Below, piece after piece: positions 3,431-48,926 of a DNA stretch of 64,000 nt (positions are counted from its first letter, which is position 1; every line of letters begins with the position of its first letter). The translations under genes and the position numbers were made by a program. The stretch lies in the NCBI GenBank assembly GCA_963402885.1, contig OY727099.1, positions 21,099,001 through 21,163,000 on the forward strand, in the 5' to 3' direction. Origin of the DNA: Antedon bifida. Its lineage: Eukaryota; Echinodermata; Crinoidea; Comatulida; Antedonidae. The notes under the pieces were generated by a model that saw only the letters and a program-made list of their open reading frames with translations, made no database searches and was not told the DNA's origin.

Positions 3431-3990
3431 ATCGTAAATTTCAGTTGCAATCATCGGCTAATATTATAATGTTGACCTGCTTAAATAGGAAACGTATCCA
3501 AAACATACATTTTTTGGTAATTTATAATGATAAGGAATACTAAAATACTTTAATTTATTTTAATGCTCTGATTAGAATAACTAAATTTCTGTATCTGATA
3601 ATAATCTTTAAATATTTTGAACTATTTATCCCTTATTACTATAACTAAACGGTGGCTGGACGATTCAGTATTGATCATTGTAATTTGCTATAACAGTAGT
3701 AAACTATATAGTATTTGCTTTGTACCTCAGTCGTTGCATTCTTGCTTTTTGTGTTTATATTACAAAGTAAGCAAGCAAGTTCTAGATCAATTGTATTACA
3801 TCACTTCACAACAATTTTACAGGCCTATTATTAGTAATAACGAATAAAAAAATAATATACCCAGACTTGTGCACCCGCTAGCAGCGAGTAATCTGCAATA
3901 ATAACAACAATAATTTTGTATGTTGTTTTGTTTATATGGAATGTTATTCTGAAATAAAGTAATCAATCAATCAAACAAAAATAAGAATAA
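3430..3990. repeat. diverged copy of the 28-44.8 kb tandem unit
   Basis: It shares with the later array the ordered text tgtatctga, ttactataac, tttgtacctcag, caaagtaagcaagcaagttc and gatcaattgtattaca. It is clearly older and more diverged than copies at 28.3, 33.4, 37.4, 41.4 and 44.4 kb. It lies just upstream of the gene 1 DED exon, as the last array copy lies upstream of the gene 2 DED exon. A short (ATCA)n run near 3960-3975 resembles the 3' tail of a CR1/L2-type LINE. Confidence 0.65.
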
Positions 3991-4077
3991 CAATGCATAT
4001 CATGGTGACTACCTTCAGTTGTCATGTTGAACAGAAATACATTTGTAAACGTTTGTTTTTGCAGACACACGAACAAA

Positions 4078-4591
4078 ATGTCAGACAAGTTTAGAAAGTT
4101 GAAAGCTGAACTCAGTAAGCATTATGAAGGTGAAGACTACAAGTTGCTGAAATTTTGCTTATTTGATATTTTACCACTAGAAAACCTTACAGATCAAACT
4201 TCCATTGGACATGATTTATTCAATACACTTGGTGACCGTGGTGTTATGTCACATAATGATGTCAAAATTTTGTTGGAGATCACACAACTAACAGGTCCGA
4301 AAGAAGCTGAACGTCTTGTAAATCAGTACATGAAAGATAACAATATTACAAATACCGAGGAAAATAAATTGTCGTCAGACCGAAAACGACTCTTTAATGC
4401 TGTTATACAATCTGAATCTCCTGCTGCATTAAAGAGAGTTACTGCAAATTATGAACTTAAAAGGTTTAATTATACACGTCTCTGGGATGTAATATTTCAT
4501 TTGGAGAAGGAAAGCATTTTACCAGACCAGTTAAATGAGTTTGCAAGTCTTCTTGGGAAACGAGCCCAGAAAGTACTGGGCCTAAGTACCG
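4078..4591 (+). CDS. gene 1, exon with death effector domain (DED)
   Basis: This is the N-terminal exon of a DED-NACHT-LRR receptor-like protein. The first ~95 residues fit a DED: an F/L-rich first helix, the LLKFCLFD stretch, a LFNTLGDRG turn and a LLEI...AERLVNQYM last helix. DEDs mediate homotypic binding in caspase-8/FADD-type signalling. Residues ~100-170 hold a second helical block ending in KRAQKVLG. I chose the ATG at 4078 over 4024 because tttttgcag at 4056-4064 is a splice acceptor, and the same acceptor-to-ATG layout occurs in the second copy at 45982-46002. The exon ends at a GT donor (4592) in phase 1, like the paralogue. It is about 55-60% identical to the 46002 exon by eye. A CARD or other death-fold domain is the alternative. 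Confidence 0.72.
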
Positions 4592-5193
4592 GTAAATATT
4601 ATTTTTCTTGATTCCATTGTGACGTCAGAATAGTTAATTAAATCGTATTTTTCAGAGATAGAACATACAATAAATGGTTACAAAAAAAAATTTTAATTAT
4701 AAATTATTAGAAATTATAGGCCTAATATCATCACTAAGATTATGTTACTACTTGAAAGTACTATAATACAAAATGAATAAACTGAACTTAACCCGTTATT
4801 GAATTAAAGAAACCTCAAGTTGTAATGTCAATATTTGAAATGATAATGTTTAAATTTAATTCTTTTCTGATCTTTCGATATTTATTTGTTAAAGTGTTAA
4901 ACTTATTGTGTATATCAAGTAATCTGTAAAAAAGTATACTGTACACGTCTTAAACTGGTTCTGCCATTATTTAGAGTAAATTGAAGCAATCTCAGTCGTA
5001 CATAAAACCAGTGAAACAAATACAGTAAATACTAAAATTGGACATTTTTAAGAACTGTATCGGCTATTTTATTTGGCCATTCTGTTTTACATTTTTTAAA
5101 CAAGTTCAGTATTTACCGTTTACGAATCTACTAATTGGTCGATTGGTATTTAATACATTTTAAATAAATGTTTTTTGGATTTTGTTTTTACAG
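4592..5193 (+). other. gene 1 intron
   Basis: A 602-nt AT-rich intron that starts GTAAAT and ends TTTTTACAG. I see no repeat or RNA gene inside it. Confidence 0.55.
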
Positions 5194-5238
5194 ATTTTTA
5201 TGATAGTTCAACGTTACCTAATCAGGGTAGTTATGACG
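5194..5238 (+). CDS. gene 1, 45-nt linker exon
   Basis: A 45-nt exon bounded by tttttacag at its 5' side and the strong donor G|GTATGT at its 3' side. Both ends are phase 1, so it can be skipped or duplicated without changing frame. Joined to the previous exon it encodes an Asp-first, polar 15-residue linker (DFYDSSTLPNQGSYD). Exons of exactly the same length and phase occur at 15101-15145 and 48882-48926, which is the main support. No transcript evidence. Confidence 0.6.
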
Positions 5239-5531
5239 GTATGTATACTGTTTATTGTTGATAAATGGTTACTAAACGCCACAATATAATTAAAAATGTA
5301 TTTTGAGATATTATAACATTATCACTTTACAAAGCGCTTATTATAAGAACCGATTATCCTGTGATTTTTGTTTTTAGTGTATTTTTAAGATTTTGTTTTA
5401 ATTTGCCACTGATGGTGGTTCGTTTTGTTTTAGTGAGTTATTCCACAATTTCGAATCAAATGTTGAAAATGTATGTTCAATTGATGATTTGTGAACACGA
5501 AGAGCATTATCTTTTGTAACACCATGTTATA

Positions 5532-6026
5532 GAGAGTTTTCGCAATCTTACGAATGCGATAACAAAAACGGATACGTCACGCACACGTATTCGTTTTCGT
5601 AAGCCAGTAAAAAATCTGTTTCGCATGGAAACGAAATATTGAGGGCGCCGTCCAAAATATGACTGCGGTAAATTTGAGCGAAGCACAGGTACGTGTTGAT
5701 TGGTGCTTGGCTGCCTAGGCCTGGCGTAACATCAAAGCGAGTGAGGACTTTAAAAACTGTTATTTATCAAAATTGACCTAGCATTTTAGTAAATTACTTT
5801 CAATAAATCTATAATTATATTATAATCAAGAATCATTCTTGATTTAAATGCAAAATGTGCAAAATAGATCAAAAACTATAATCGTTTTGAAGTTACGAAT
5901 ATAACTGGTGATATTCGTAAACACGAATACGCTTTACGAATATGAAATGGGGATCAGCTCAAAAGTTTCATAAATGTGTGACAAATCCGTTTTTGTTATC
6001 GTATTCGTAAGGTTGCGAAACCTCCC
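5532..6026. mobile_element. MITE M1, 495 bp, TA-flanked
   Basis: Terminal inverted repeats pair GAGAGTTTTCGCAA at the left with the complement of TTGCGAAACCTCCC at the right, and the match continues through TTACGAATNCGATAAC. TA flanks both ends (5530-5531 and 6027-6028). There is no coding capacity. The TA flanks resemble a Tc1/mariner-type target but the superfamily is not proven. The same family recurs inverted at 6214-6556. Confidence 0.72.
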
Positions 6027-6213
6027 TATTGCTTAATAATTCACACATACAGACCGGCGCAATATAACACAATACAAAATTACTGTATAAAGACCAGAGT
6101 TGGCATTTATCGTTATTATTAATTTGCAAACCGTCTTATCATAAACATTGTCTTGCATGCTTGTATTACTTGAAAAAGAAAAAGAGCACAAAAGTCGGAA
6201 ATACCATATATTA

Positions 6214-6556
6214 GGGAGTTTTCGCAACCTTACGAATACGATAACGAAAACGAATACGTCACACATTTGTGAAACTTTTGAGCTGATCCCCATTTCATAT
6301 TCGTAAAGGGTATTCGTGTTGACGAATATCACCAGTAATAATTCGTGACTACAAAACGAGTATAGTTTTTGATCTATTTTGCATTTGAATCAGGAATGAT
6401 TCATGATTATAATATAATTATACTTTTATTGAAAGTAATTTACTAAAGTAATTTACTACAATTCCAGGTCAATTTTGATAAATAGCAGTTTTTAAAGTTA
6501 TTACGAAAAACGAATACGTTTTTCGTTATCGTATTTGTAAGATTGCGAAAACTCCA
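6214..6556. mobile_element. MITE M2, 343 bp, inverted relative to M1
   Basis: Same terminal repeats as M1 (GGGAGTTTTCGCAACCTTACG ends), flanked by TA. Internal text such as gagctgatccccatttcat is the reverse complement of M1's atgaaatggggatcagctc, so M2 lies in the opposite orientation, shortened by internal deletions. Only ~190 bp separate the two, so together they form a large imperfect inverted repeat. Confidence 0.72.
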
Positions 6557-6558
6557 TA

Positions 6559-7075
6559 TTTCCTCCATGGAAATACATCCGCAAATAATTCGCTCTAAAC
6601 TTAAATCAAATCAACATTTTTATCAAATACACTTTTCTAAAAGTAACTCACTGCTGGTTAGTCGAATGAGTCGTACCTATCCCGATATATTAGTTTTGCT
6701 TGCCCAATTTCTAGGCCATCTTACTGAAGATCAATATCATTATTTTAGTGTCCACGATACCGAACGTTCGATGTTCTGGCCCAGCGCGCTCGCGTTGTCA
6801 AAACAATATTTTTCTGTTGCATAGATAAGACGAAATTGTTAACTATAAAGCAAGAAATATATTTGCTAAGTATTATTGATAAATTCGACTTAAGCACAAT
6901 CAAGGATTTAAGGCAAAGTTAAAACGATTTTTTTTGCTAAGCAAGTTTCATAAATCCGGCCCCTGAACTTCAAATGTTGAACTTTACTGTTTGCTAAACT
7001 GACAACTAATGCAATTCTTTCAAAACTGGACTAGTACGAGTACCCCATGTTACCAATCTTTCAGAACAATCTTGA
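6559..7075. other. no gene recognised
   Basis: Intronic sequence of gene 1 in my model. I see no domain-bearing frame, RNA gene or repeat. Confidence 0.45.
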
Positions 7076-7391
7076 AGCTTTTGTAATTATAACTGAAGAT
7101 TTCTTTTGATACTACGCCAATGAGCGAATTATTGCAATTGTTTCATGCTCTAACATTCTGTTCCATACGTTGCAATCGGGAATACAAAGTCTTCAGCAGT
7201 TTAACCTGTGCACAAATAATTGTAAGAGAAGTACTTTCCCTTGCCATAGTGATTCTTCTTCTTTCTTGTGTGCCATTGAATTTTATATTGACACAGAGAA
7301 GTTGAATTTGTCGTTTAAGGATGGTTGAAATTGGTTATATGATTTTGTTCAGCATCGCTTTTGCTTTTGTAAGATTAAAACATAATCCAGC
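7076..7391 (-). pseudogene. decayed LINE reverse transcriptase, 3' half
   Basis: Read on the - strand, this continues the reverse-transcriptase frame broken off at 13485. The sequence directly next to the LTR reads AGLCFNLTKAKAMLNK, the usual block after the FVDD motif in non-LTR elements. Farther on, FVFPIATYGTEC matches the conserved block beyond the RT palm. The frame shifts between these blocks and has stops, so it is dead. The clade is uncertain. Confidence 0.7.
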
Positions 7392-7782
7392 TGTCATAAT
7401 ATTTATGTTCTGATTCCCTGTGTTTAGATAAGGATGCTTTAGACTAGGTCTGCTTAATTTTATTAGCCAATCAAAATCGTATAATTTTGGAGGGAAAATG
7501 TTATCCTCCTCTGAAGCCCCTAATTTGCATGTCCAGTATAAGAGTAGAATGTAATAGATATTAGAGAAGAAGAGAGAATAAGATCAAAGTAGATAGACGT
7601 ATAGATTATAGAGAAGAAAGGTCTAGACTGGTAGAAAGATGTATTAATCGAGTTACAAGAAATAAAAGTTTTAGTTGAATACAGTATACTTTTTGTATGA
7701 GAAATTATTCAGTGTCAGTGTACGTCGCGTGAATATATATACGCCTGAGAACGCTCGGAACCAACTCCATATATTCACTACA
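7392..7782 (+). repeat. 5' LTR of the Gmr1-like element
   Basis: 391 bp, TGTCATAAT...CACTACA, with no difference from the 3' LTR that I could find by eye. AATAAAAG near 7660 is a likely polyadenylation signal, and pol II start signals are expected inside the LTR. Confidence 0.93.
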
Positions 7783-8370
7783 TGGTGGCAGCGGTAAAAA
7801 TTTTTGTTTAAGAAGAAGAAGAAGAAGAAGTGACAGTGCCTACTCTACGGGCCTGTTAAATCGGTAACCAAAAAGTTAAATGGTTACGAAGATCTGGATT
7901 CCTGACAGTTTTTATACCGTTGTTTGGATATTACAACGAAGAAGAAGTACTGTTGAGCTCAAGACTGCTGGATATTCATCGGAGATATATATTCACCGAG
8001 ATCTGAAAGAAGAAGACTGAAGTAACAGAAGGAAGCCCAGTAAATTTTGAGAAGATTTGCAAAGTTGACTTTGTAAACTATTTTTATTTCGAAAGTAAAT
8101 TTTTGTACGGAGCGAACTTGGAACGATTGATTTTGTGATTTGTACTTTGTTTTTGGATATTGCATGTTGGATTTTGTATTTTGAAAGGAACGTTGTTTGT
8201 GACTCTGAAGTAAATTAATTTCTTATATTGTATTGCATTTAAAATTTTTTTGTGGATTTCATATTTTTACATATCTGAATGGAATCAAGGTAATACAAAT
8301 ACTTTTATAACATATTTTGTATACATAAGTTTACAAATTTCATTAGTAAAATTGTTATTAGCATGATAGC
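7783..8370 (+). promoter_or_regulatory. primer-binding site and untranslated leader
   Basis: TGGTGGCAGCGG begins directly after the LTR at 7783. A TGG start pairs with the CCA end of a tRNA primer; the tRNA species is not determined. The rest is an AT-rich leader with a GAA-rich run (7811-7830), leading to the gag-pol ATG at 8371. I see no separate gene in it. Confidence 0.75.
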
Positions 8371-11300
8371 ATGACAACTTTAAGATCGGGTAAAAATATA
8401 GATAAGACTATGTCAGAAAAAGATACTAGGGAAGATATGGTTGACCAAGAAGAGGTTGACCAAGTCAATGAAATGTATGATAAAATGGCTAGGGATATTG
8501 ATTTGCCCAAAATACCAGGCGGTATGCCTAAAGATATGATGCTCGAATATTTTCGAATGAAGTTCGAGGCCGAAAACAAAAAGTTAGAATTACAGTACCA
8601 ACAAGACCAATTAAGATTAGAAGCAGATATAGAGCAAAGAAAAATTGAATCACAAGAAAGAGTGAAAATGATGGAATTAGAAAATAGGTCTAGCTACAGT
8701 AATGCTAGGAATGTAGTAGATGAAATGAAGGTAAAGGTTCCTACTTTGAAGGAATCAGATGATATTGATATATATTTTAGAACATTTGAACACTTGGCAG
8801 AAGCCACAGGTTGGGATAAGAATACGTGGGCCGCTAGGTTAGCACCTGAACTGTCTGGTAAAGCTAGGACAGCCTATGCATCCTTAACCGTACAAGAATG
8901 TGTAGATTATGATACCTTAAAGAAGGCAATCTTAGAAAAGTATGATGTGTCCGCAGAGACCTACAGACTTAAATTTAGAAATTCAAACAGAGTTAAAGAT
9001 ATGTCCATCAGGGAATGGCTGAATGAGCTCTCCCATTATTTAAAATGTTGGATGAAATGTGCTAATGTAAAAGAAGATGATGCTGCAGGCATTATTGAAA
9101 TGATTATAATGGAACAGGCACTTGATAAAATGCCGGAAGACCTGAGGCTTTATCTTAGAGATAAACAAGTAAATAAGAGCTATGATATGGCTATGATAGC
9201 CGATGATTATATAGCTAATAGAGGTGGCCGTGGCTATTGGAATGCCGTAAATTCTGAAAATAAGCCTACGTATTATAAGGGCCAAGAAAATAGTAAACCT
9301 AAGAATAGTACGACTCAGAATAACCCTGGAGCTAGGCAGCAAGGATACAATAGGTATCGTGGAAGGGGAGGCAAATTCCATAACTATGGTAGAAATTTCC
9401 AACAGAGAGAACCTTCAAATGAATGGATTAATGGCCTATGCTTTAATTGTAAGGAGAAGGGACATAAAATAGGGGATTGTCCTAAGATGGTAGCAAAAGG
9501 AAAGACTAGTGACGCTAAGAAGGGCCCGAATGTGAAAGATGGCTTAAGATGTGAAGGAATAAAATCAGATAGACCCCAAGTAGTTATGGATAGTGTAGAA
9601 AATAAAATGGAGAAGTGTACACTACCAGGAAAATTAGAAGGACAGGATATAACTATGCTCAGAGACTCGGGATGTACCCAGTCAGCTGTTAGGGAAAGTC
9701 TAGTGCCTAACAAATGTTACTTGCCAGGAAAATGGGTTACGTTAAGAGGTATAGGAGGCGATATTACAGTCCCCTTAGCTGAGGTAGCTATAGAAAGTAA
9801 GATAGTGACAGGAAAAGTGATTGTAGCCGTAATCGAAGGATTACAGAGGGACATGTTATTGGGTCATGATTTGGACCAGAATTGTGGGGAAACAATGGCT
9901 AAAGAAATGTTCGTCCTAACTAGAGAGCAAGCCAGAATAGAAAATGATGCTAGAATACAAGACGAAATGATATTGTTAGGGAAAGATAGTAACTTTAAGC
10001 CGATAGAAGAGCCGCCTAAAGAAACTAATGTACAATTGTTGAAAACAGTAGTAAATGACAACAAAGTAAATAAAACTAAGTATTTAGATGATATGAATGG
10101 AACAGAAATGAATAATTTATTTGACGAAAATGAGGATATAAAAGCTAAAGATAAAACAGTCAAACGTAAAACTTATGAACAACAGCACAAGCTGAACCTA
10201 ACTAAACAAGAACTGATCAAATTACAAACTAATGATGACTCACTCAAAGGAGTGTTTGATAGGGTAGTCCCTATAGAAGAAATAGGTCAGCATAGGGTAT
10301 GTTTCTTTATGAGACAAGGTATATTGATGAGAAATTGGAGTAGTATTAAAGATAAGAATAACCAAGTGGAACAGATTGTATTACCCACTCAGTGTAGACA
10401 GGGTGTATTACACTTAGGTCATAATGTGCCATTTGCAGGTCACATGGGTGTTGAGAAAACTAAAAGTAGGGTACTGAACCAATTCTATTGGCCAGGTATA
10501 TTTAAAGATGTGGTAGTCTATTGTAAAGTCTGTAAGGAATGCCAAAAGGTAGATAAGGGTAAAAGTAAAAGGAAACATACTTTGATACCATTACCGATTA
10601 TAAGTACACCATTTAAACGTATAGCGATAGACATTGTTGGACCCTTATCTAGAACAAGCCGTAATAACAAATATATGCTTACTATAATTGACTATGCTAC
10701 GAGATATCCGGATGCTATCCCGTTACCCAATGTTAGAGCTGAAACAGTAGCCAGGGCTCTAATAGAAGTCTTTACTAGAGTAGGATTACCCGAAGAGATT
10801 GTACATGATCAAGGAACTAATTTCATGTCTTCAATTATGCAATCTATATGTAGTATGTTGGGGATTAATCAATTAAAGACTACAGTGTACCACCCCCAAA
10901 GCAATGGGCTTGTTGAAAGATTTCACGGTACATTGAAGAATATGATAAGGACACTTACAGTTAAGCAAAGAAAAAATTGGGATGACTACATACCCCCCTT
11001 TCTGTTTGCATACAGAGAAGTTCCTAGTAAAGCGACGGGCCATTCACCTTTTAAATTGCTTTATGGTAGAGAGGTGAGGGGACCCTTGAGTTTACTCAAA
11101 AGTAATTGGGTAGAGGATGAAGAAACATCTACTGATGTTATCAAATACATGTTAGACATAAGAGAAAAAATGGAGGAATTAATGAAAGATGCTAATGTAA
11201 ACAAACTTGAACAACAAGAAATTATGTCCCACAATTATAACAAGAATGCTATTGATAGAGAATTTGTAGAAGGGGACAAAGTGTTGATATTCCTTCCAGT

Positions 11301-12990
11301 AGGAAATAGTAAGTTAGACAGTAAATGGCAAGGCCCCTTCACTGTGACTAAAAAGGTCAATGATGTAAATTATGAAATATACATAGGAGGTAGAAGAAAA
11401 GAAAAACAAATTCTACATGTTAATATGTTAAAGAGATGGTATGATAAAGTAGAAATAAGTAAAGATGGTTATTATGTAGTGACAAATGTCCAGTCAATAG
11501 AAGAAGTAGACTTAAATGAAACAGTCCATGACAATGAGTTAGATAGTGAAATAGACATAGGATTGTCTTATCATCAATCGCAAACATGGAGAGATGTTAA
11601 CGTTAGTAGTAATTTAAATGATACACAAACTAAACAATTAACAGAATTGTTAAAGTACCAACAGAATGTATTCTCGGATGTACCAGGTAGAACTCACTTA
11701 GTGACACATGAAATTAAGACTAATGGTGAAATGCCTATAAGGCATAGGGCATATAGAACGCCCCAATCATTAAAGGGTAAATTGAAAGAGGAATTAGATA
11801 GTATGTTGGCTATGGGTATAATAGAACCTACAGTTAGTGCCTATGCTGCACCTATTATTGCCCTGAAGAAAGGCCAGAATCAAATTAGAATGGTGACAGA
11901 TTTTAGATCACTAAATAAGACTACACAATTTGACCCTTATGTTATGCCTCGCATAGACGAAATGTTGGATGAGGTATCATCCGCAATATACATAACTACG
12001 TTAGATCTAACTAAAGGATTTTACCAGGTGCCTCTGGATCCTAAGACCAAAGACAAATCAGCATTTATTACACAATTTGGACAGTATTGTTACAATGTAC
12101 TTCCATTTGGTATGCAAAATAGCTCTAGTACTTTCCAAAGATTAATGGATAAGGTATTACAAGGTACTGAGGGATATGCTAAGGCATATATAGATGACAT
12201 ATGTATTTATAGTCAAACTTGGAAAGATCATATTTTTCATTTGAATGATGTATTAGAAAGATTAAGTAGTGCTGGATTGACAGCAAAGCCTTTGAAATGT
12301 AAAATTGCCTATGCACAGGTAGAATTTCTGGGGCATAAGATTGGTAATGGAGAAATTAGACCCATGGTTGATAAGGTTGAGGCTGTGGAAAAGTTCCCCA
12401 GACCTCTGTCTAAGAAACAAGTCCGATCATTTCTCGGATTAACTGGCTATTACAGAAAATTTGTACAAAACTATGCCGATATTGCTAAGCCATTGATTGA
12501 TTTAACTTTAAAGAGTAAAAGTAATACCGTTAAGTGGAATGAACAATGTGAAAATGCCTTTGTAACTTTAAAGAAACGACTTACTGATGATAATGTATTA
12601 AAAGCCCCAAATTTTGATAAGATGTTTATATTGCAAACCGATGCCTCAAATTATGGCATAGGGGCAGTGCTGAGCCAAATAGATGGCGAGGGTAATGATT
12701 ATCCCATTGTGTATTTAAGTAGAAAGTTATCTGTACATGAGCAGAGATATTCTGTGCCAGAAAAAGAGTGCCTCTCTATTGTTTGGGCTATCAATAAACT
12801 TAAGTATTATCTGTATGGTTGTGAATTTCAAGTTCATACTGACCACCAGGCATTGAGATGGATGGACTCAATGAAGGGTGCCAATGTTAGACTTATGAGA
12901 TGGGCTCTGTTTTTACAAGGATATAAATTTAAAGTTATTTACAAGAAAGGATCATTAAATGGAAATGCAGATGGATTAAGCCGTGCATAA
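8371..12990 (+). CDS. gag-pol: Gag-protease-integrase-reverse transcriptase-RNase H polyprotein
   Basis: A single 1,539-residue polyprotein that would copy and integrate the element. In order: a charged coiled-coil Gag start; a Gag capsid-like region (~110-280); a CX2CX4HX4C zinc knuckle at residues ~357-370 (9439-9480); a retropepsin with active-site DSG near residue 432; an HHCC zinc domain (~680-730); an integrase core with AIDIVGP, HDQGTNF and VERFHG supplying D, D and E; a KWQGPF-type C-terminal segment; a reverse transcriptase with YIDD at 12187-12198; and RNase H with TDASNYGIG and HTDHQAL. There is no envelope gene and no internal stop or frameshift. Gag and Pol are fused in one frame. 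The domain order separates it from ordinary gypsy elements. Confidence 0.95.
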   Translation: MTTLRSGKNIDKTMSEKDTREDMVDQEEVDQVNEMYDKMARDIDLPKIPGGMPKDMMLEYFRMKFEAENKKLELQYQQDQLRLEADIEQRKIESQERVKMMELENRSSYSNARNVVDEMKVKVPTLKESDDIDIYFRTFEHLAEATGWDKNTWAARLAPELSGKARTAYASLTVQECVDYDTLKKAILEKYDVSAETYRLKFRNSNRVKDMSIREWLNELSHYLKCWMKCANVKEDDAAGIIEMIIMEQALDKMPEDLRLYLRDKQVNKSYDMAMIADDYIANRGGRGYWNAVNSENKPTYYKGQENSKPKNSTTQNNPGARQQGYNRYRGRGGKFHNYGRNFQQREPSNEWINGLCFNCKEKGHKIGDCPKMVAKGKTSDAKKGPNVKDGLRCEGIKSDRPQVVMDSVENKMEKCTLPGKLEGQDITMLRDSGCTQSAVRESLVPNKCYLPGKWVTLRGIGGDITVPLAEVAIESKIVTGKVIVAVIEGLQRDMLLGHDLDQNCGETMAKEMFVLTREQARIENDARIQDEMILLGKDSNFKPIEEPPKETNVQLLKTVVNDNKVNKTKYLDDMNGTEMNNLFDENEDIKAKDKTVKRKTYEQQHKLNLTKQELIKLQTNDDSLKGVFDRVVPIEEIGQHRVCFFMRQGILMRNWSSIKDKNNQVEQIVLPTQCRQGVLHLGHNVPFAGHMGVEKTKSRVLNQFYWPGIFKDVVVYCKVCKECQKVDKGKSKRKHTLIPLPIISTPFKRIAIDIVGPLSRTSRNNKYMLTIIDYATRYPDAIPLPNVRAETVARALIEVFTRVGLPEEIVHDQGTNFMSSIMQSICSMLGINQLKTTVYHPQSNGLVERFHGTLKNMIRTLTVKQRKNWDDYIPPFLFAYREVPSKATGHSPFKLLYGREVRGPLSLLKSNWVEDEETSTDVIKYMLDIREKMEELMKDANVNKLEQQEIMSHNYNKNAIDREFVEGDKVLIFLPVGNSKLDSKWQGPFTVTKKVNDVNYEIYIGGRRKEKQILHVNMLKRWYDKVEISKDGYYVVTNVQSIEEVDLNETVHDNELDSEIDIGLSYHQSQTWRDVNVSSNLNDTQTKQLTELLKYQQNVFSDVPGRTHLVTHEIKTNGEMPIRHRAYRTPQSLKGKLKEELDSMLAMGIIEPTVSAYAAPIIALKKGQNQIRMVTDFRSLNKTTQFDPYVMPRIDEMLDEVSSAIYITTLDLTKGFYQVPLDPKTKDKSAFITQFGQYCYNVLPFGMQNSSSTFQRLMDKVLQGTEGYAKAYIDDICIYSQTWKDHIFHLNDVLERLSSAGLTAKPLKCKIAYAQVEFLGHKIGNGEIRPMVDKVEAVEKFPRPLSKKQVRSFLGLTGYYRKFVQNYADIAKPLIDLTLKSKSNTVKWNEQCENAFVTLKKRLTDDNVLKAPNFDKMFILQTDASNYGIGAVLSQIDGEGNDYPIVYLSRKLSVHEQRYSVPEKECLSIVWAINKLKYYLYGCEFQVHTDHQALRWMDSMKGANVRLMRWALFLQGYKFKVIYKKGSLNGNADGLSRA

Positions 12991-13082
12991 ATAATATTAT
13001 AGAGGTGTTATTAGTAGATAGTTTAAAGTAAAATGGTTTTAAATGTTAAATTTTTTGGAAAGATTGACACAATCTTTTTCCC

Positions 13083-13093
13083 AAGAAGGGGAA
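13083..13093 (+). promoter_or_regulatory. polypurine tract
   Basis: AAGAAGGGGAA directly before the 3' LTR. This is the standard plus-strand primer position in LTR retrotransposons. Confidence 0.85.
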
Positions 13094-13484
13094 TGTCATA
13101 ATATTTATGTTCTGATTCCCTGTGTTTAGATAAGGATGCTTTAGACTAGGTCTGCTTAATTTTATTAGCCAATCAAAATCGTATAATTTTGGAGGGAAAA
13201 TGTTATCCTCCTCTGAAGCCCCTAATTTGCATGTCCAGTATAAGAGTAGAATGTAATAGATATTAGAGAAGAAGAGAGAATAAGATCAAAGTAGATAGAC
13301 GTATAGATTATAGAGAAGAAAGGTCTAGACTGGTAGAAAGATGTATTAATCGAGTTACAAGAAATAAAAGTTTTAGTTGAATACAGTATACTTTTTGTAT
13401 GAGAAATTATTCAGTGTCAGTGTACGTCGCGTGAATATATATACGCCTGAGAACGCTCGGAACCAACTCCATATATTCACTACA
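13094..13484 (+). repeat. 3' LTR of the Gmr1-like element
   Basis: 391 bp, apparently identical to the 5' LTR, followed by the target duplication CCAGC. Confidence 0.93.
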
Positions 13485-13930
13485 CCAGCCTTCTCACTTT
13501 CAATGCTGACTCTTTCCACAAGATTTTCTAGTTCATCTTGTGTTTCTGCTAATATGACGTCATCTACAAAGTGGAAGTTCTTAATGACCCGGCCTAAAAG
13601 TTTGACACTAACGTTTATCTCATTACTATTTCTGCATACCGATTTATACGATGGAATAATACACCCTGCAGCCTTACTCCTTGTCTAATCTTGAACCATT
13701 TTGTCAAATCATCGCTTACCTCTGCCATCTTTGCAGAGTACAAAGACTGGAAAACCCATACATGGAAATGAGTTTTATAAAACACTGTGAATAACTGTGT
13801 TAAATGCCTTCTTGTAGTCTATGAAACAGAGAGCTCCATCTCGATTTTGTTCTCTTCGTTTCTTGAATATTACATTTATAATTATTTGATCTCGTGTACC
13901 TCTAAATATGTCATGAGTTTACTGAGTATT
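13485..13930 (-). pseudogene. decayed LINE reverse transcriptase, 5' half
   Basis: Read on the - strand it encodes RGTRDQI, then FIDYKKAFNTVIHSVL (RT motif A with its catalytic Asp), and later FVDDVILAETQDELENLVE (the catalytic FVDD box), up to the point where the Gmr1-like element interrupts it. The text resumes at 7391. Frameshifts and stops lie between the motifs, so it is inactive. It is a non-LTR element; the clade is not resolved. Confidence 0.78.
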
Positions 13931-14216
13931 GTTCTAATGTTATTGATTCACCCATTCAAGTTTTAGTAAATGACCTTATTTTCTACAGACGGAGCATTCA
14001 ATCAAGGGCAACATTAAAAATCAAACTTATTTCAAGCCATAAGTTCCTTACTTTTTCTATTTCTTTTTAAATTAAAAAAAAAAAAATTTGTCTGGTTTGT
14101 ATCCTGCTAGACAGTTACTGGCCACCATGTAATATGTTACTTGAATGTGTCAAGCGGATTTTGTGTTTAAAAAAATGGCTTAAGTGCAATACTGAAGTAA
14201 GATAAGAGTAAGATAA

Positions 14217-14450
14217 TCCTGTTGGTGCAGTACACGCTGCTTACTTGGGCTCGAATCTAACCACTAGCCATCAGCGCAAGCTCGGTGGTCTAGAGGTATG
14301 AACGCCAGGCTAGTGTAGTCCCACCTGAGAACTACTTGCGATTTTTTTCGCAAGTATTCTCAAATGTACTTAGTATAAAGTACAAATTACGTCAGAGTAG
14401 GGCAAAACATATAATTATTCAACTCCCTGACGCAAAACTACAATTACAAT
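14217..14450 (+). mobile_element. tRNA-derived SINE, copy 1 (box B deleted)
   Basis: First of two head-to-tail copies starting CCTGTTGGTGCAGTAC. Compared with copy 2 it lacks ~32 nt spanning the box B region (GGTTCGAGTCC), so it could not be transcribed by pol III in the usual way. It carries the body palindrome ACTTGCGA...TCGCAAGT and the end ACTACAATTACAAT. Confidence 0.75.
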
Positions 14451-14702
14451 CCTGTTGGTGCAGTACCCGCTGCTTACTTGGGCTCGAATCTAACCACTAG
14501 CCATCAGCGCAAGCTCGGTGGTCTAGAGGTATGAACGCCAGGCTAGTGATCTGGAGGTCGTTGGTTCGAGTCCCACCCGAGAACTACTTGCGATTTTTTT
14601 CGCAAGTATTCTCAAATGTACTTAGTATAAAGTACAAATTACGTCAGAGTAGGGCAAAACATCTAATTATTCAACTCCCTGACGCAAAACTACAATTACA
14701 AT
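14451..14702 (+). mobile_element. tRNA-derived SINE, copy 2 (complete head)
   Basis: The tRNA-like head at 14513-14583 has CTCGG pairing with CCGAG as acceptor stem, a box-A-like TGGTCTAGAGGT and a perfect box B, GGTTCGAGTCC. The anticodon arm is CCAGG-CTAGTGA-TCTGG, whose loop reads AGT (Thr-like). The tail is not a tRNA, so this is a SINE rather than a tRNA gene. Related copies occur at 56437-56688 (-) and 56699-56795 (+). Confidence 0.8.
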
Positions 14703-15100
14703 CCTGTTTTTGATTGACATGAAAAGAAGTTAGGCCTGGAAATGAAAAGGAAACAAGACGTTCGTTTAATTTCCCGCCAATTACAAACAAGGGTTGCTGA
14801 ACATCTGAGTAGAGATACAAAATCCAAGGTATTTCAACATGTATAAAATGCAGTTCCGGATGCGCGAGATTGTGCAATTTAAAGTATTTCCAAATTATTG
14901 ATTAGGCATGACAATAAACGACCAACGTGAGTAAAGCGGGAATCATAAGAGAGCCTATCCATACTTGAAGATGTTGGTGGTAGAAATGTAAGGAATAGAA
15001 GAAAAAAAATAATCTTAAACAGAATGTAATACCAGGATTGATACATAAAGACACAAACATGACATGAAAGTGTTAATATCAGTACTTATTTTCTTTAAAG
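14703..15100 (+). other. gene 1 intron end
   Basis: No repeat or frame recognised. It ends in a weak pyrimidine tract and TTTAAAG, the presumed acceptor for the 15101 exon. Confidence 0.45.
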
Positions 15101-15145
15101 ATGTTCCAGCTAATCGAGCAACACATCCACGGGATTCTAATGACG
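15101..15145 (+). CDS. gene 1, second 45-nt linker exon
   Basis: Another 45-nt, phase-1 exon, ending in G|GTATGTATACC like the 5194 exon. It encodes DVPANRATHPRDSND. This clearly matches the 48882 exon of gene 2 (DTPVNPATPPKESDK) residue by residue, which argues for selection on a coding linker. The acceptor is the less usual AAAG. It sits 405 nt upstream of the NACHT-LRR exon. Confidence 0.68.
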
Positions 15146-15285
15146 GTATGTATACCAGTTGTTGATGATGGGATTGATGGTTACTGGCATTGTATTTTGA
15201 GTCATTTAAGGGATTTAACATTGTGTTTAGTGATTGCTTCATTTTTGCTAATCAAGTAAAATTTACTACTACTACTTACATTAAT

Positions 15286-15326
15286 AATTATAATATTTAT
15301 AATTTTAAATTATAAATATTATAATT
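15286..15326. repeat. perfect AT palindrome
   Basis: Two 20-nt arms (AATTATAATATTTATAATTT and its complement) around a single T, in the intron between the second linker exon and the NACHT-LRR exon. Part of the flanking text recurs at 60545-60590. Confidence 0.7.
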
Positions 15327-15550
15327 ATAATAATTAATATTATACGTGGAATTCTAATATCCTATATAAACTATTTTATTTTATTAAATGTTACCATCAA
15401 CTGGAATACAAGATACGTTTCCACAGACATGACATTTCCAAACATGATATTGGATCATGGTGATTGGATGATTATAACGCCAATATCTATGAAAGCATAA
15501 TCTGATCAAAATATAACTAGCTACTCCTAACCATAACGCTTTATTTATAG

Positions 15551-18500
15551 AAAAAATAGAAAAGTACCTGCGTGCAAGACAAAATATACTGTGTCGGAAG
15601 GAGAATGAAAAATTCACACCATCAATAATGAATAGCAGAGACACTCTCGACATTAACGTCTTCACCGAGTTGGACCTTCTCAAAGAAAATAATAACACAA
15701 GAGACAACATGCTAACAACGTTACCAGAATTATTAACTGCTATAGAAAACACACCTGGGTGTAGGGTTCTTATAGAAGGCAAGGCTGGCATTGGAAAAAC
15801 AACTCTACTAAGGTATTTGGCATACAAAACAACTGACGAGAAACAAATTGCTTTTAAAGGTAAACTTGTTTTTGTACTTTACGTGAGAGATTTGAAAAAA
15901 GGTAACAGCATCTTTGATCTTATTGAGAAACAATTTGACATGGAAGATTTCAATTTAGGTACAGGTCTAAAAAACAATCCAAAACTGATTAAACAATTTA
16001 TAAAGAAATATGACGAAACAATTGTGCTGTTATTAGATGGGTTAGATGAACTACGTTTTAAGAATGATTGCTTGATAAATATGTTTAAAGGGACAACATT
16101 AGGTAGGAGTGTTGTGTTACTTACTTCACGATCAGAAAATATAGATGAATTCGTAAAAGACTGTAATATACATGTAAGAGTAAAAGGATTTAACAGAGAT
16201 AGCATTGGGACGTATATTGAGAACCATTTTCAGCATTTTAGAAAACATGAATTGGGAATTAAACTTAAACAGGAATTACAAGTTGACACGGATGTATCTA
16301 TGATACAACGTAAATATCCATATGCATATGATTTGTGCAAAAATCCTATGTTTCTACTCTCAATTTGTATTATTTGGGAAGATAAACAAAGCCTTCCTTC
16401 TAATAACGTTGACCTTTTTAAAGAAATATTTCGCTGCAATTTGAATCATTACAACCGAAAGCATGGAAACCAGAAAAAGATTTTAAAATTTGAAAATATT
16501 CCAGAAAACTATGTACATGCTATGGTTTTATTAGGAAAATGTATGTTTAGAAATCTAAAAACAAATCAACTTACAATCGAAAAGAATGATTTAAAAGCCG
16601 AAGATAGTAATTTGGTTGAATTGGCTTTTAAACTAGGATTTGTTTACAAAATATCCTCAAATTTAAGATCTGACTCAGAGCCTGAGATTAACATGCCTAC
16701 ACACAAATCAATACTGGAATCACTAGTAGGTTTTTATGTTTACAAACGTTGTGAACAAGGAGATATGACAACTGATTTTATAAAAGATTTAAGAGACTCC
16801 ACATATCTAATTAGGGCAAATATGTTTGCAGTAGAATTTCTTGGTGCTGATGCAAATAAACTACTACAGTATTGGGTTACATGTAGCTTACCAACATATC
16901 GTCCTTTGATACACAAGTACTTGGCATGTGTTAAAGATCAACATAAGGGTAGTGTGAATAAAGCCTTAAGACATCACATGGTTAGTGGAAAATTAAATCA
17001 ACACACCGATATTATATCAAACTCATTTAATGATTGTATTGCCTACATAAAACCAAATTTAGATGTGGGTGAGCATTTTATAGATCGCATATGTCAACTC
17101 AGTAACATGCATATTAATGAGCTTGATTTGCGAAAATGGTCTAATACATTATCAATTGAAAAAAGAGGCAAATTATTTGCGCACATTGCATATTTTGTTA
17201 CACCCACACTTGACGTACATAATTACAATCTATCAGGTGATGTAATGAATGATATGGTTAGAGAGTGGTCTAACATGGGTGGTGGGTTGATAATAAACAG
17301 TCTCATTATCAGCAAAAATAATCTGAGCAGCATTAATCCTGAATTACTGCTTACTTTATTGAAGTTGTCTCCCTTTCCTCTTTCATTTGAAATGATTGAT
17401 TGTAATATATCAGGTAAAATAATAAATGAAGTCAGTAAGTGTAATGATGGAGATATTCTAACAATAAGTATGCTCAATATCGCTAAAAATAATCTCAGCG
17501 ACATTGATGGTACTTTACTGGGTACTTTCTTAAGTAAGATTCCCCAGCTGTTGAAACTTGACGTGCGTGATTGTAAACTATCAGGACGCATATTGAATGA
17601 AATGATCAGAGTATATAAGAGTGATGAATTACAAGTGATTGATATTGGAAACAATGATATCAGTGACATTGATGGTACCTCAATGGGTAATTTCTTTAGT
17701 AAGTCTCCTAAGCTGCTTGAAATTTGTATGCGTGATTGCAAATTATCAGGGGACACGATGAACAAAATAATGAGTGTGTATGCAGGAGATGAGTTACAAA
17801 CCATTGATATTGGGAATAATAACATCAGTGACATCGACGGTACTATACTGTGTGCGTTCTTGAGTAAATCACATAAGTTACATAGCATTAGCATGCATAA
17901 TTGTAAACTATCAGGTGAGACGATGACCAAAATGATGACAGGGTACGTAGGGGATGGGCATTTACAAGCGATTGATATTGGGAATAATGATATCAGTGAC
18001 ATCGATGGTACTTTGCTAGGTACTTTCTTGAGTAAATGCCCTCAGCTGCTTAAACTGTACATGTACAATTGCAAACTATCAGGTAAAGTTATGACTGAAA
18101 TGATGAAAGTGTATGGAGAAAATGAGTTACAGGAGCTTGGAATTGGGAAGAATACTATAAGTGACACTGATGGTTCTCAGTTTGGTTCTTTTTTGAATAA
18201 ATCTCCTAGATTGTGTAAGCTCTTTATGCATAATTGCAGATTGACCGGTGAGTTAATTAATGAAATAATTAGATCGTATACAAAAAATATATCAGAATTG
18301 CAAGAGCTTGATATTGGAAATGATTATAGCAGTGACAATGAAAGGCATTTATTGAGTGTTTTATCAATTAACTCTTTAAAGCTTCGTATACATGACATAC
18401 ATGAATACAAATTATCGTGTGACATAATGAAGGCGGAAAACAGCGTGTATGCTGGAGAAGAGTTGGAATTGCAGGGGCTTTATTTTAGAAATGATGTTAA

Positions 18501-21500
18501 CAGTGACATTAAATCTCAAAAGCTGATTAAACTTAAAAGTAATCGTAAAATACCAGATGATGTGTTAAATAAAAAGATACTGGACACATTTAGTGAGTTA
18601 GAACTAAAAAAGATCGAGAACAATGATATCAGTGATATTGATGGATCTTTACTAGGTGCTTTCTTGAGTAAGTGTCCTAAGCTTAGTAAACTCTCGTTGC
18701 ATGGTTGCAAACTATCCAGTGACGTAATGAATAGCATGATGGTGGTATATGAAGGAGATCAATTAGAAATGCTTGATATTGGGAATAATGATATCAGTGA
18801 CATTGATGGAAATTTACTGTGTGAATTTTTGGGTAAGTCTCCCAAGGTCAAACTTTTCATGCAGAATTGTAAAATACCATGGGGCATAATGAACAAGATG
18901 ATGAGAGTGCTTGTAGGTGATGAGTTACAAGTGATTGATATTAGGAATAACAATATTGATGGTGCATTATTGGGTACTTTTCTGAATACGTCTACTAAGC
19001 TGAAAGAACTTGTCGTAAGAAATTGTAAACTATCAGGAAAGGAATTGAATGAAATGATGAGCGTGTATGCAAACGGTGAGTTACAATTGGAGGTTTTTTC
19101 GATTGGTTATAATGAAATCAAAAACATTGATGGTACTTTACTGGGTACTTTTTTGAGTAAGTCTCCTAAGCTACATACTCTTGACTTACACAATTGTAGA
19201 CTATCAGGTGATGTGATGAATGGATTTATGAGGGCGTATACAGGAGATGTGTTAGAATTTAAAGTGCTTGTTATTTCTAATAATGATATCAGAAGCATTG
19301 ATGGCAATTTCCTGAGTAATTTCTTGAGTAAATCCCCTAAGCTGCTTGAACTTTATATGTATAATTGTAATCTATCGGGTGACGTAATGAATGAAATGAT
19401 GAGAGTATATGCAGTTGATGTGTCACAGTTACAATTACTTAATATTGCGAATAATGATATCAGAAGCATTGATGGCAATTTGTTGGGTAATTTCTTGAAT
19501 AAATCTCCTAAGCTGCTTGAACTTTATATGCATCATTGTAAACTATCGGGTGACGTAATAAATACAATGATGAGGTTGTATGTAAGAGATCAGTTGGAAT
19601 TACAAGAGCTACATATTAATGAGAATAATTTCTGTGACATTGATGGTGCTTTACTGGGTAATTTCTTGAGTAAGTCGCGTAATCTACATACTCTTCGATT
19701 AGACGATTGTAAACTATCGGGTGACGTAATGAATGAAATGATGATAGTATATGTAGGAGATCAATTAGAATTACAATCACTTGCTATTGCGAATAATGAT
19801 ATCGGAAACATTGATGGAAATTTGTTGGGTAATTTCTTGAGTAAATCTCCTAAGCTGCTTAACCTTTGCATGCAAAATTGTAAACTATCGGGTGACGTAA
19901 TGAATAAAATGATGAGGTTGTATGTAGGAGATCAGTTGGAATTACAAGAGCTACATATTAATAACAATAATTTCGGTGACATTGATGGTGCTTTACTGGG
20001 TAATTTCTTTAGTAAGTCGCGTAATCTACATACTCTTCGCTTGGATGATTGTAAACTATCAAGTGACGTAATGAATGAAATGATGAGAGTATATGTAGTT
20101 GATGTGTCAGAGTTACAATTAATTAATATTGCGAATAATGATATCGGAAACATTGATGGTAATTTATTGGGTAATTTCTTAAGTAAATCTCCTAAGCTGC
20201 TTGAACTTTATATGCATAATTGTAAACTATCGGGTGACGTAATAAATAAAATGATGAGGTTGTATGTAGGAGATCAGTTAGAATTACAATCACTTGCTAT
20301 TGCGAATAATGATATCAGAAACATTGATGGCAATTTGTTGGGTAATTTCTTGAGTAAATCCCCTAAGCTGCTAAAACTTTACATGCATAATTGTAAACTA
20401 TCGGGTGACGTAATGAATGAAATGATGAGAGTATATGTAGTTGATGTGTCACAGTTACAATTACTTAATATTGCGAATAATGCTATCGGAAACATTGATG
20501 GTAATTTGTTGGGTAATTTCTTGAGTAAATCTCCTAAGCTGCTTAAGCTTTATATGCAAAATTGTAAACTATCGGGTGACGTAATAAATACAATGATGAG
20601 GTTGTATGTAGGAGATCAGTTGGAATTACAAGAGCTACATATTAATGACAATAATTTTAGTGACATTGATGGTGCTTTACTGGGTAATTTCTTGAGTAAG
20701 TCGCGTAATCTACATACTCTTCGCATGGACGATTGTAAACTATCAGGTGACGTAATGAATAAAATGATGAGAGTATATGTAGTTGATATGTCACAGTTAC
20801 AATTACTTGCTATTTATAATAACGATATCGGAAACATTGATGGTAATTTATTGGGTAATTTCTTAAGTAAATCCCCTAAGCTGCTTAAACTTTACATGCA
20901 TAATTGTAAACTATCGGGTGACGTAATAAATAAAATGATGAGGTTGTATGTAGGAGATCAGTTAGAATTACAAGAGCTACATATTAATAACAATAATTTC
21001 AGTGACATTGATGGTGCTTTGCTGGGTAATTTCTTGAGTAAGTCGCGTAATCTACATACTCTTCGCTTGGATGATTGTAAACTATCAAGTGACGTAATGA
21101 ATGAAATGATGAGAGTATATGTAGTTGATGTGTCACAGTTACAATTACTTAATATTGCGAATAATGCTATCGGAAACATTGATGGTAATTTGTTGGGTAA
21201 TTTCTTGAGTAAATCTCCTAAGCTGCTTAAGCTTTATATGCAAAATTGTAAACTATCGGGTGACGTAATAAATACAATGATGAGGTTGTATGTAGGAGAT
21301 CAGTTGGAATTACAAGAGCTACATATTACTGACAATAATTTTAGTGACATTGATGGTGCTTTACTGGGTAATTTCTTGAGTAAGTCGCGTAATCTACATA
21401 CTCTTCGCATGGACGATTGTAAACTATCAGGTGACGTAATGAATAAAATGATGAGAGTATATGTAGTTGATATGTCACAGTTACAATTACTTGCTATTTC

Positions 21501-21936
21501 TAATAACGATATCGGAAACATTGATGGTAATTTATTGGGTAATTTCTTAAGTAAATCCCCTAAGCTGCTTAAACTTTACATGCATAATTGTAAAATATCG
21601 GGTGACGTAATAAATAAAATGATGAGGTTGTATGTAGGAGATCAGTTAGAATTACAAGAGCTACATATTAATAACAATAATTTCAGTGACATTGATGGTG
21701 CTTTGCTGGGTAATTTCTTGAGTAAGTCGCGTAATCTACATACTCTTCGCTTGGATGATTGTAAACTATCAAGTGACGTAATGAATGAAATGATGAGAGT
21801 ATATGTAGTTGATGTGTCAGTGTCACAGTTACAATTACTTAATATTGCGAATAATGATATCGGAAACATTGATGGTAATTTGTTGGGTTATTTCTTAAGT
21901 AAATCTCCTAAGCTGCTTGAACGTTATATGCCGTAA
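15551..21936 (+). CDS. gene 1, NACHT-LRR exon of an NLR receptor
   Basis: The main exon of an NLR-type cytosolic sensor. TTATTTATAG at 15541-15550 is the likely acceptor. Starting there continues phase 1 from the linker exon and stays open through the first internal ATG (15628). Counting from that ATG, FTELDLL precedes Walker A GKAGIGKTT (residues 51-59), Walker B IVLLLDGLDE (~132-141) and sensor TSR (~166-168), so nucleotide binding is expected. A helical NACHT-associated region runs to ~530. About fifty LRRs of ribonuclease-inhibitor type follow, alternating 28- and 29-residue units (NNDIGNIDGNLLGNFLSKS and NCKLSGDVMN). The frame ends TAA at 21934-21936 inside an LRR because 22 nt are missing relative to its sister repeats. 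The truncated protein would still be ~2,329 residues when spliced. Confidence 0.9.
20432..21799 (+). repeat. 684-bp higher-order LRR duplication
   Basis: Two nearly identical blocks, 20432-21115 and 21116-21799, each with eight LRRs. They share private variants such as AATGCTATCGG, ACCTTCGCATGG-type text at the same offsets and the alternation of VINTMM and VINKMM. A partial third block follows and carries a 6-nt in-frame insertion (VSVSQL). This is recent unequal exchange. Confidence 0.85.
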
Positions 21937-22247
21937 TGAATACAATGATGAGGTTGTATGTAGGAGATCAGTTAGAATTACGATCACTTGCTATTGCAAA
22001 TAATGATATCGGAAACATTGATGGCAATTTGTTGGATAATTTCTTGAGTAAATCCCCTAAGCTGCTTAAACTTTGCATGCAAAATTGTAAACTATCGGGT
22101 GACGTAATAAATAAAATGTTGAGGTTGTATGTAGGAGATCAGTTAGAATTACATGAGCTACATATCAATGACAATAATTTCGGTGACATTAATGGTGCTT
22201 TGCTGGGTAATTTCTTGAGTAAGTCTCATCATATACTCTTTGCTTAG
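21937..22247 (+). pseudogene. LRR continuation, out of frame with the main exon
   Basis: It resumes the same 28/29-residue LRRs (NNDIGNIDGNLL, NCKLSGDVINKML) after a net 22-nt deletion that moved the frame by -1. It closes at a TAG (22245-22247) just after a second, 4-nt deletion in the segment that should read SKSRNLHTL. No start signal suggests a separate gene. It is either part of a truncated allele or an assembly error in a repeat. Confidence 0.85.
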
Positions 22248-23290
22248 AAGATTGTAAACTATTAGGTGACGTAATAAATGAAATGATGAGAGTATATGCA
22301 GTTGATGTGTCACAGTTACAATTACTTAATATTGCGAATAATGATATCAAAAGCATAGATGGCAATTTACTAGGTAATGTCATGAGTAAATCTCCTAAGC
22401 TGCTTAAACTTGATATGTATAATTGTAAACTATCGGATGATGTAATGAATAAAATGCTCAGAGTATATACAAAAGATGAGTTACAATTACAAGAACTTCA
22501 TGTTTACAATAATAATGTTAGTGACATCGACGGTACTTTATTTGGTACTTTATTAAATAAGTCACCAAAGCTGTGTGTACTTAACATGAATAATTGTAAA
22601 CTGCCATGTAACGTTATAAGTAGAGTGCATGTAAGCGGCTTACAAGTGCTTGACATTGGAAATAATGATATCAGTGACATTGATGGTATTTTACTCGGAA
22701 GTACTTTGAATAACTCGTCTAAGCTGCGTACACTCAACATGAATAATTGTAAACTACAAGGTAATATAATGAATGAAATAATCAGAGAGTTTGCAAGAGA
22801 TGAGTTACAATTGCATGAGCTTTATGTTGGGAATAACTACTTCAGTGACATTGACGCTACTCTACTGTGTACTTTAGTGATTATCTCTCCTAAACTGCGT
22901 ATACTTGATATGAACAATTGCCAACTATCAGATGATGTAATGCATACACTGACCAGAGCTAAACCAAAAGAATTGCAATTGTTTACTAACAATAATGATA
23001 TCAGTGACGATGAGAGCGATAGGATTATTCGTTCCATTGATTTGTGTAATGACATATTAAGAACGTCGTCATTAGATGAGTTACCGAGCTTTCTACAACC
23101 GTTTTTGTCAAATATCAATCTGAATACTTTTCACCAGTATTTTTTGAGTAAACACAACAGTGAAATTGGAGTAAATATATTGGTTAGTGACTTAATGAAT
23201 GAAATGATGGGAGAGGTTAGATTGGGTAATATCTTAGAGCAGCTTACTCACCAGCCCGATGTGCATGATACACACATTAATTACTCATAA
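22248..23290 (+). pseudogene. terminal LRRs and C-terminal tail, third frame
   Basis: LRR reading resumes here in a third frame, and is open from about 22232 (LCLEDCKLLGDVINEMM). It runs about eleven more, increasingly diverged repeats (NNDISDIDGILLGSTLN, NNCKLQGNIMNEII) and then a non-LRR C-terminal tail ending at TAA 23288-23290. This is the natural C-terminus of the protein. The last repeats are less alike than the middle ones, as expected if exchange is concentrated in the array centre. Confidence 0.85.
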
Positions 23291-29066: not shown

Positions 29067-29095
29067 TGGAATATTCTGGTACGTGTCTATAAAAG
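29067..29095 (+). promoter_or_regulatory. heat-shock-element-like pair plus TATA box (U1)
   Basis: GGAATATTCTGG (GAA-nn-TTC) at 29067-29078 and consensus TATAAAAGG at 29087-29095. The spacing recurs in U2. No gene is visible downstream, so any transcript would be noncoding. Confidence 0.3.
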
Positions 29096-31627: not shown

Positions 31628-31639
31628 CAGGCGTTTCTA

Positions 31640-41105: not shown

Positions 41106-41131
41106 ATAGTTGTACACGCGCTCCTACAATA

Positions 41132-46001: not shown

Positions 46002-46530
46002 ATGTCAGATCTTAAAAGTGAGTTTAGAGTGTTGAAATCCGAACTTGGTAAGCATTATGAAGGCGAGGACTACAAATTGCTCAGATTTTGCGTAAGTGAT
46101 CATCTACCAATAGCAGACCTTACTGATGCAGAATCTATTGCAAATGATTTATTCAACAAGCTCGATAGCGAAGGTGGCCCTGGTGTTATTACACCAACTG
46201 ATGTCACCCTTTTGCTGGAGATTACCAGATTAGCCGGCCCAAAAGATGCTGAACATCTTGTACGTCAGTATATAACAGATAACAATATCAAATGTACTGG
46301 TGAAAATAAATTAAAACCAGAACGAGAACGACTCTTTCGGGCTGTGAGACAATCTGGATCTCCTGCTGCGGCACGGAGGGTTGCATCAAAGTATCGACTA
46401 AAGCAATATAAAAGCCTCTGGGATGTGATACTTGAGTTAGAGAAGAAACTCATTTTACCAAAAGAGTTAAATGAGTTTGTACGTCTTCTTGGAGAACGAG
46501 CCCAGAAAGAACTCGGCCTACTTAGTACAG
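46002..46530 (+). CDS. gene 2, DED exon
   Basis: Paralogue of the 4078 exon. FRVLKSELGKHYEGEDYKLL, LFNKLDSEGG, LLEITRLAGPKDAEHLVRQY and LWDVILELEKKLILP align throughout, so the DED and the helical block after it are both kept. The splice acceptor (TTTTTGCAG, 45973-45981) and the distance to the ATG match the first copy. The exon ends at a strong donor, CAG|GTATGT, again in phase 1, after 176 codons plus one base. No stop or frameshift. Its downstream partner domain is not visible in the window, so it may belong to a DED-only adaptor or to an NLR that extends past 64 kb. Confidence 0.75.
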
Positions 46531-48881: not shown

Positions 48882-48926
48882 ATACTCCAGTTAATCCAGC
48901 AACACCTCCAAAGGAGTCTGATAAAG
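48882..48926 (+). CDS. gene 2, 45-nt linker exon
   Basis: A 45-nt phase-1 exon between GTTGTACAG and G|GTATGT, encoding DTPVNPATPPKESDK. It matches gene 1's 15101 exon in length, phase and residues (D.P.N.AT.P..S). It is a polar, Pro-rich spacer. The paralogy of such a small exon is the best evidence that both genes share a DED-linker-NACHT plan. Confidence 0.68.

Follow-up and report, generated by a model that had tools for sequence, protein, structure and literature searches.

Receptors of the NLR family in which a death-effector domain (DED) is joined to a NACHT domain are documented in general (PMC2575513, PMC11508797, PMC8913654). They were reported from amphioxus, sea urchin and Nematostella, whereas the combination was not seen in vertebrates; such receptors were proposed to trigger apoptosis by bypassing an ASC-like hub, and one amphioxus DED-NACHT transcript was recovered by reverse-transcription PCR (PMC2575513). 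NLRs with one or more death/DED domains are described for the sea cucumber Chiridota heheva (PMC8913654). Here, we analyzed a window of 64,000 nt from the crinoid Antedon bifida (assembly GCA_963402885.1, contig OY727099.1, positions 21,099,001 to 21,163,000; all coordinates below refer to the window), in which a DED exon, two mini-exons and an exon coding for NACHT and leucine-rich repeats (LRRs) can be read as one gene. We consider it fairly probable that this is a crinoid-type NLR composed of a tandem-DED module, a 30-residue mini-exon linker and a NACHT-LRR exon, which clusters to seed a filament. Since DED-NACHT fusions and death/DED NLRs have already been published, the kind of receptor is known. 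The known animals show the same direct combination, but tandem DEDs or mini-exon cassettes are not described in the accessible part of that report (PMC2575513). Neither a tandem-DED NLR nor a mini-exon linker turned up in our searches of open-access literature, which is weak evidence of novelty. Likely new are the presence of a tandem DED in an NLR and a linker made of cassettes.

The window consists of AT-rich, animal-type DNA (33% G+C, no N). Four exons were rebuilt (Table 1), each with AG before and GT after it, except that the last one closes on a stop. All joins are in phase 1, and the spliced sum of 6,990 nt is open over 2,329 codons with a single stop, the terminal TAA. The original prediction of four phase-1 exons without internal stop, joined in phase 1 throughout, was re-derived in this way. 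Its gene end at 23290 has to be withdrawn, because the 6,990-nt frame stops at 21936 and LRR coding continues beyond this point in other frames. All four include/skip combinations of mini-exons 1 and 2 remain in frame with no internal stop. We infer the joining of the exons from this open phase-1 splice path; together with relatives of the same order, themselves predicted, it would place DED and NACHT on one transcript. Upstream of both DED exons in the window lie conserved islands, which are candidates for a promoter or a 5' leader exon.

The exon at 4078-4591 had been called a DED, and a profile search returned this match, albeit under the Pfam cut-off: PF01335 aligned to residues 5-75 with an E-value of 1.1e-6 and 29.2 bits (gathering score 35.9). 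DED was listed at E <= 1 in all 14 members of the module alignment, both window DEDs counted. The module matches solved DEDs in sequence and fold. The structure match of the first exon's module is the tandem DED of caspase-8/cFLIP, in which two adjoining DED bundles pack together into a single unit, and a crinoid profile of the module matches caspase-8. A charged signature, RxDL, is found in the last helix of tandem DEDs; it could not be seen when the crinoid consensus was aligned to RIDL of cFLIP, a comparison made without residue-by-residue measurement. A single-sequence phmmer search of the DED exon against the PDB gave one unrelated match (E 0.49). The first exon probably encodes a tandem DED of the caspase-8/cFLIP kind and not a single DED. 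Hence, the DED identity stands, but the single domain most likely does not, since fold and profile matches point to a tandem. As in caspase-8, cFLIP and vFLIP, two death-effector bundles probably form a unit of ~170 residues; however, the crinoid module is attached to NACHT-LRR, that of caspase-8/cFLIP to a caspase or pseudo-caspase domain.

The NACHT domain was detected with an E-value of 1.5e-18 (PF05729, 67.6 bits versus a cut-off of 26.7), and the Walker A (GKAGIGKT, 15778-15801) and Walker B motifs (LLLDGLDEL, 16027-16053) are both intact. The C-terminal LRRs are covered by LRR_4 (E 5.1e-55, 17 stretches) and form an array of 171/342-nt repeats, in which 23 LRR anchors, defined by our own pattern, stay in the main frame. 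From 19109 to 21931 the array is a 342-nt higher-order repeat; eight units compared from 19124 show 73-99% identity, which indicates that the array expanded in tandem recently. The main frame is separated from the remaining LRR coding by two short deletions, as judged from the neighbouring repeats. Provided that the assembly is correct, 21937-23290 is not translated with the main open reading frame. Since the array is cut short, the sensing end of this copy appears to be truncated or decaying.

Querying with residues 1-736 of the spliced protein (about 8,000 candidates scored) retrieved 33 proteins, of which the top 27 (E 2.4e-74 or better) are crinoid NLRs, all from Antedon mediterranea or Anneissia japonica; the other six are weak (E 6.4e-10 to 9.8e-4). 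A second search from protein P0002 (E <= 1e-10, about 8,000 candidates scored) gave 35 proteins, all from the same two crinoids, and a third yielded one. The best relative is P0043 of A. mediterranea, named 'NACHT, LRR and PYD domains-containing protein 14-like' at NCBI. It contains a DED module (PF01335, E 3.5e-5, below the cut-off), two cassettes, NACHT and LRRs in the same order, which supports the prediction that DED, NACHT and LRRs belong to one gene; its model has 1,521 residues versus 2,329 here. A NACHT tree built from the window protein and 40 fetched relatives places P0043 as sister to the window protein (support 1.000). P0027 is nearer in the DED part (105/166 identical), yet its NACHT is just a fragment.

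The two mini-exons would encode a linker of 30 residues between DED and NACHT. Their chance expectation was estimated with a scan requiring AG, a pyrimidine-rich tract, the donor GTATGT or GTAAGT, an open phase-1 frame and 30-60 nt, criteria that were chosen after two mini-exons had already been seen. In 100 first-order Markov sequences of 64 kb the mean was 0.44 candidates (maximum 4), and 0.01 (maximum 1) for exactly 45 nt. The window contains six candidates on the plus strand, three of them exactly 45 nt long, and one of 30 nt on the minus strand. Among the six, 15110-15145 is nested in mini-exon 2, 46495-46530 is the end of a second DED exon, 44945-44983 is without other support, and 48882-48926 is a new mini-exon, mini-exon 3.

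This second DED exon, a paralogue, and its homologous mini-exon are located 42 kb downstream of the first. The two DED exons share 107 of 169 residues (dN 0.229, dS 0.541) and cluster in a small DED tree (support 0.817); mini-exons 2 and 3 are identical at 34 of 45 nucleotides, and their 15-residue translations agree at seven positions (permutation p 5e-5). A blastn comparison of 3000-7386 and 13485-17300 with 44000-64000, leaving out a retrotransposon, revealed colinear conservation of the DED exon, of both islands upstream of it and of a 75-nt stretch surrounding mini-exon 2/3 (76%, E 1.6e-9); the remaining matches between the loci are a dispersed repeat. When phase-1 45-nt AG..GT stretches of both loci were paired (six in the introns of the first locus, retrotransposon excluded, and 16 downstream of the second DED exon), mini-exons 2/3 were the single convincing pair, scoring 39 versus 13 for the runner-up. 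With other lengths and a looser donor, the best stretch beyond them scored 14 versus 83. No homologue of mini-exon 1 was found in these comparisons; it has 3 of 15 residues in common with mini-exon 2 and likewise with mini-exon 3. When a NACHT exon was sought for the second locus by tblastn (E <= 1e-3), the window protein and the 33 proteins of the first search, out of 47 fetched in all, hit nothing but the DED exon at 44-64 kb. Consequently, such an exon either lies beyond 64000 or was lost.

The proposal that the mini-exons form a DED-NACHT linker is supported by the homologous mini-exon in the second locus and by a stretch similar to mini-exon 3 beside the start of the NACHT part of P0014 (A. 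mediterranea). In this protein, DIPVNPTIPYYNE directly precedes EKIEKYL and resembles mini-exon 3 (DTPVNPATP); 5 of 300 shuffles reach its score. Internal repeats were assessed for the linkers of 48 proteins (47 fetched and that of the window). Fourteen were tested, P0001 and P0002 being isoforms of one gene; 30 linkers could not be delimited by rule, three were shorter than 24 residues and one was absent. Five of the 14 were repetitive at p < 0.01: P0043 (two 27-residue units, p 0.001), P0005 and P0034 (21-22-residue units, p 0.001 each), P0002 (24-spaced units, p 0.003) and Anneissia P0044 (15-residue units, equal to 45 nt, p 0.001). P0015 and P0017 had p-values between 0.01 and 0.03, and the other seven were not significant, including the window's own linker (p 0.60), P0001 (0.13) and P0018 (0.45). 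P0019, tested apart, has 15-residue units with a period of 15 (p 0.001), and three such units were recognized by eye in P0046. The model of this A. japonica protein contains a DED followed by the three cassettes, and between these and NACHT a domain resembling OTU proteases (PF02338, E 2e-6); the OTU-like domain is either an insertion at the linker or the product of a merged gene model.

The clearest evidence for cassette skipping comes from a relative, namely from the annotated isoforms P0002 (X1) and P0001 (X2) of one A. mediterranea gene (NCBI gene models). Relative to X1, a block of 67 residues is missing from X2, and where X1 has R and D at the borders of this block, X2 has N, which phase 1 alone of the three phases permits. 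The paralogues P0021 and P0042 are one 16-residue insert apart at the joint, with identical printed flanks. We infer that the cassettes of the relatives are separate exons. As to the 'interchangeable' character of the linkers, its support is limited to turnover between relatives: the window protein and P0043 agree in 5/30 linker residues versus 96/166 in the DED and 306/546 in NACHT, and P0043 carries two lysine-rich tandem 27-residue cassettes instead of two 15-residue ones.

Exchange may also extend to the signalling module. P0036 and P0037 of A. mediterranea, whose NACHT parts are among the nearest after P0043 (tree distances 1.08 and 1.11 versus 0.80), have the same KIExYL entry into NACHT as the window protein, but a TIR-like module replaces the DED. 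Pfam TIR_2 matched the N-terminus of P0037 below the cut-off (E 7.7e-4) and that of P0036 not at all, and whole-protein scans of both gave nothing at E <= 0.01. A profile of three TIR-like N-termini, however, matched the TIR domain of TLR2 (E 1.3e-7). That different signalling modules stand ahead of the same NACHT border is protein-level support for shuffling.

The intron between mini-exons 1 and 2 harbors a long terminal repeat (LTR) retrotransposon. Its LTRs at 7392-7782 and 13094-13484 are 100% identical over 391 nt with TG..CA ends, the 5-nt target duplication CCAGC is present at 7387-7391 and 13485-13489, and a gag-pol-like frame of 1,542 codons extends from 8362 to 12990. Identical LTRs and target duplication indicate a recent insertion. 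The element accounts for most of the intron length and itself calls for no functional interpretation. The dispersed repeat occurs at 14215-14708, 56431-56805 and 59655-59713; its stretch 14514-14581 resembles a tRNA in Rfam (33.1 bits), and it is probably a tRNA-derived short interspersed element. The region 28334-43079, which separates the two DED loci, contains three to four copies of segmental repeats at intervals of 3.6-5.1 kb, with CAAAGTCGCCC minisatellites. On the minus strand at 54561-55818, two overlapping reverse-transcriptase-like frames, recognized by eye, are probably a broken long interspersed element.

Table 1. Features of the window around the two DED loci.
Feature	Position	Strand	Details
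Non-coding island	3146-3200		78% vs 44147-44200
Non-coding island	3711..3831	+	79% vs 44439-44556, upstream of second DED exon
First coding exon	4065..4591	+	leader after acceptor TTTTTGCAG; ATG 4078; coding part 4078-4591 (514 nt, 171 codons + 1 nt), phase 1
Mini-exon 1	5194..5238	+	45 nt, phase 1-1, DFYDSSTLPNQGSYD; acceptor TTTTTGTTTTTACAG; donor GTATGTATAC, same in mini-exon 2
Complete Ty3/gypsy-type LTR retrotransposon	7392..13484	+	intron between mini-exons 1 and 2; class by eye from translation
Mini-exon 2	15101..15145	+	45 nt, phase 1-1, DVPANRATHPRDSND; homologous to mini-exon 3
NACHT-LRR exon	15551..21936	+	6,386 nt, phase-1 entry; NACHT 15766-16236; LRR array from about 17488; stop 21934-21936 mid-array
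LRR array remainder	21937..23290	+	other frames than main open reading frame; 355-codon open frame 22223-23290
Second DED exon (paralogue)	46002..46530	+	529 nt, phase 1; acceptor TTTTTGCAG ends 45981
Mini-exon 3, second locus	48882..48926	+	45 nt, phase 1-1, DTPVNPATPPKESDK

Several other explanations have to be weighed against a single working receptor gene. The DED exon could be a short FLIP-like gene and NACHT-LRR a separate transcription unit, starting for instance at Met 15628. The models of some relatives (P0008, P0020, P0022) indeed begin within the NACHT part without DED, the NACHT exon has no in-frame Met before codon 26, and the 10-kb gap contains a 6-kb retrotransposon. Nevertheless, we regard two units as very unlikely: the phase-1 donor of the DED exon reads through both mini-exons into the NACHT exon without a stop, P0043, P0001, P0004 and other models read DED-linker-NACHT, and the models starting in NACHT are predictions that may lack first exons. 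There is an appreciable possibility that, although a gene of this type is genuine, the present copy is decaying or truncated and yields no working receptor because of its broken LRR array and the retrotransposon in the linker intron. The end of the main frame at mid-array, the two short deletions before the remaining LRR coding and the recent insertion marked by identical 391-nt LTRs fit this assumption. However, 2,329 codons are open with intact Walker A/B motifs and splice-site dinucleotides, the 23 LRR anchors are in frame, an intronic retrotransposon need not block splicing, and an assembly error within such similar 342-nt repeats could account for the break.

Concerning the mini-exons themselves, small symmetric exons occur in many genes, and these may be ordinary constitutive linker exons, always included, fixed in length and without regulatory role. 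Conservation of mini-exon 2 between the two loci fits a constant part, and 9 of the 14 testable family linkers are without internal repeat at p < 0.01. We take this reading seriously but rate it somewhat short of even, since such a block is missing from one of two annotated A. mediterranea isoforms, P0021 and P0042 differ by one insert, and linkers vary in length and sequence between relatives. Mini-exon 1 might also be a false exon, with mini-exon 2 alone in use, because no counterpart was found at the second locus, where its pairings score 1 at best, or among the relatives, where 271 of 300 shuffles reach its best score. We nevertheless regard this as unlikely in view of the strong acceptor of mini-exon 1, the donor GTATGTATAC that mini-exon 2 also has, and an open phase-1 frame with a length of exactly 45 nt, for which the chance expectation is 0.01 per 64 kb.

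NLRs oligomerize via NACHT and the tandem DEDs of caspase-8 form filaments; solved assemblies are available in the PDB. For the favored tandem-DED NLR, a ligand would be sensed by the LRR end, whereupon the NACHT ATPase would oligomerize and bring the tandem DEDs together. The clustered DEDs might then nucleate a filament to which a caspase or an adaptor with a DED of its own is recruited, and a separate adaptor may be unnecessary. The mini-exons would serve as a flexible spacer whose length is altered by cassette duplication or skipping; because every joint is in phase 1, this length can change without a frame break. Tentatively, and with rather less confidence than doubt, we suggest that crinoids possess a one-molecule death-receptor platform that seeds caspase filaments without FADD or ASC, and in which a mini-exon spacer, made longer, made shorter or replaced through cassette duplication and splicing, sets the DED-NACHT distance and thereby the signalling threshold.

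In vertebrates, NLR sensor, adaptor and tandem-DED caspase are separate proteins. If our reading is true, an NLR with a built-in tandem DED would represent a compact form that does without the adaptor, and would hint at a former connection of inflammasome and death-receptor signalling. The mini-exon cassettes at the joint would provide a natural test of linker length in NLR signalling, in which DED and NACHT are constant and the spacer is varied.
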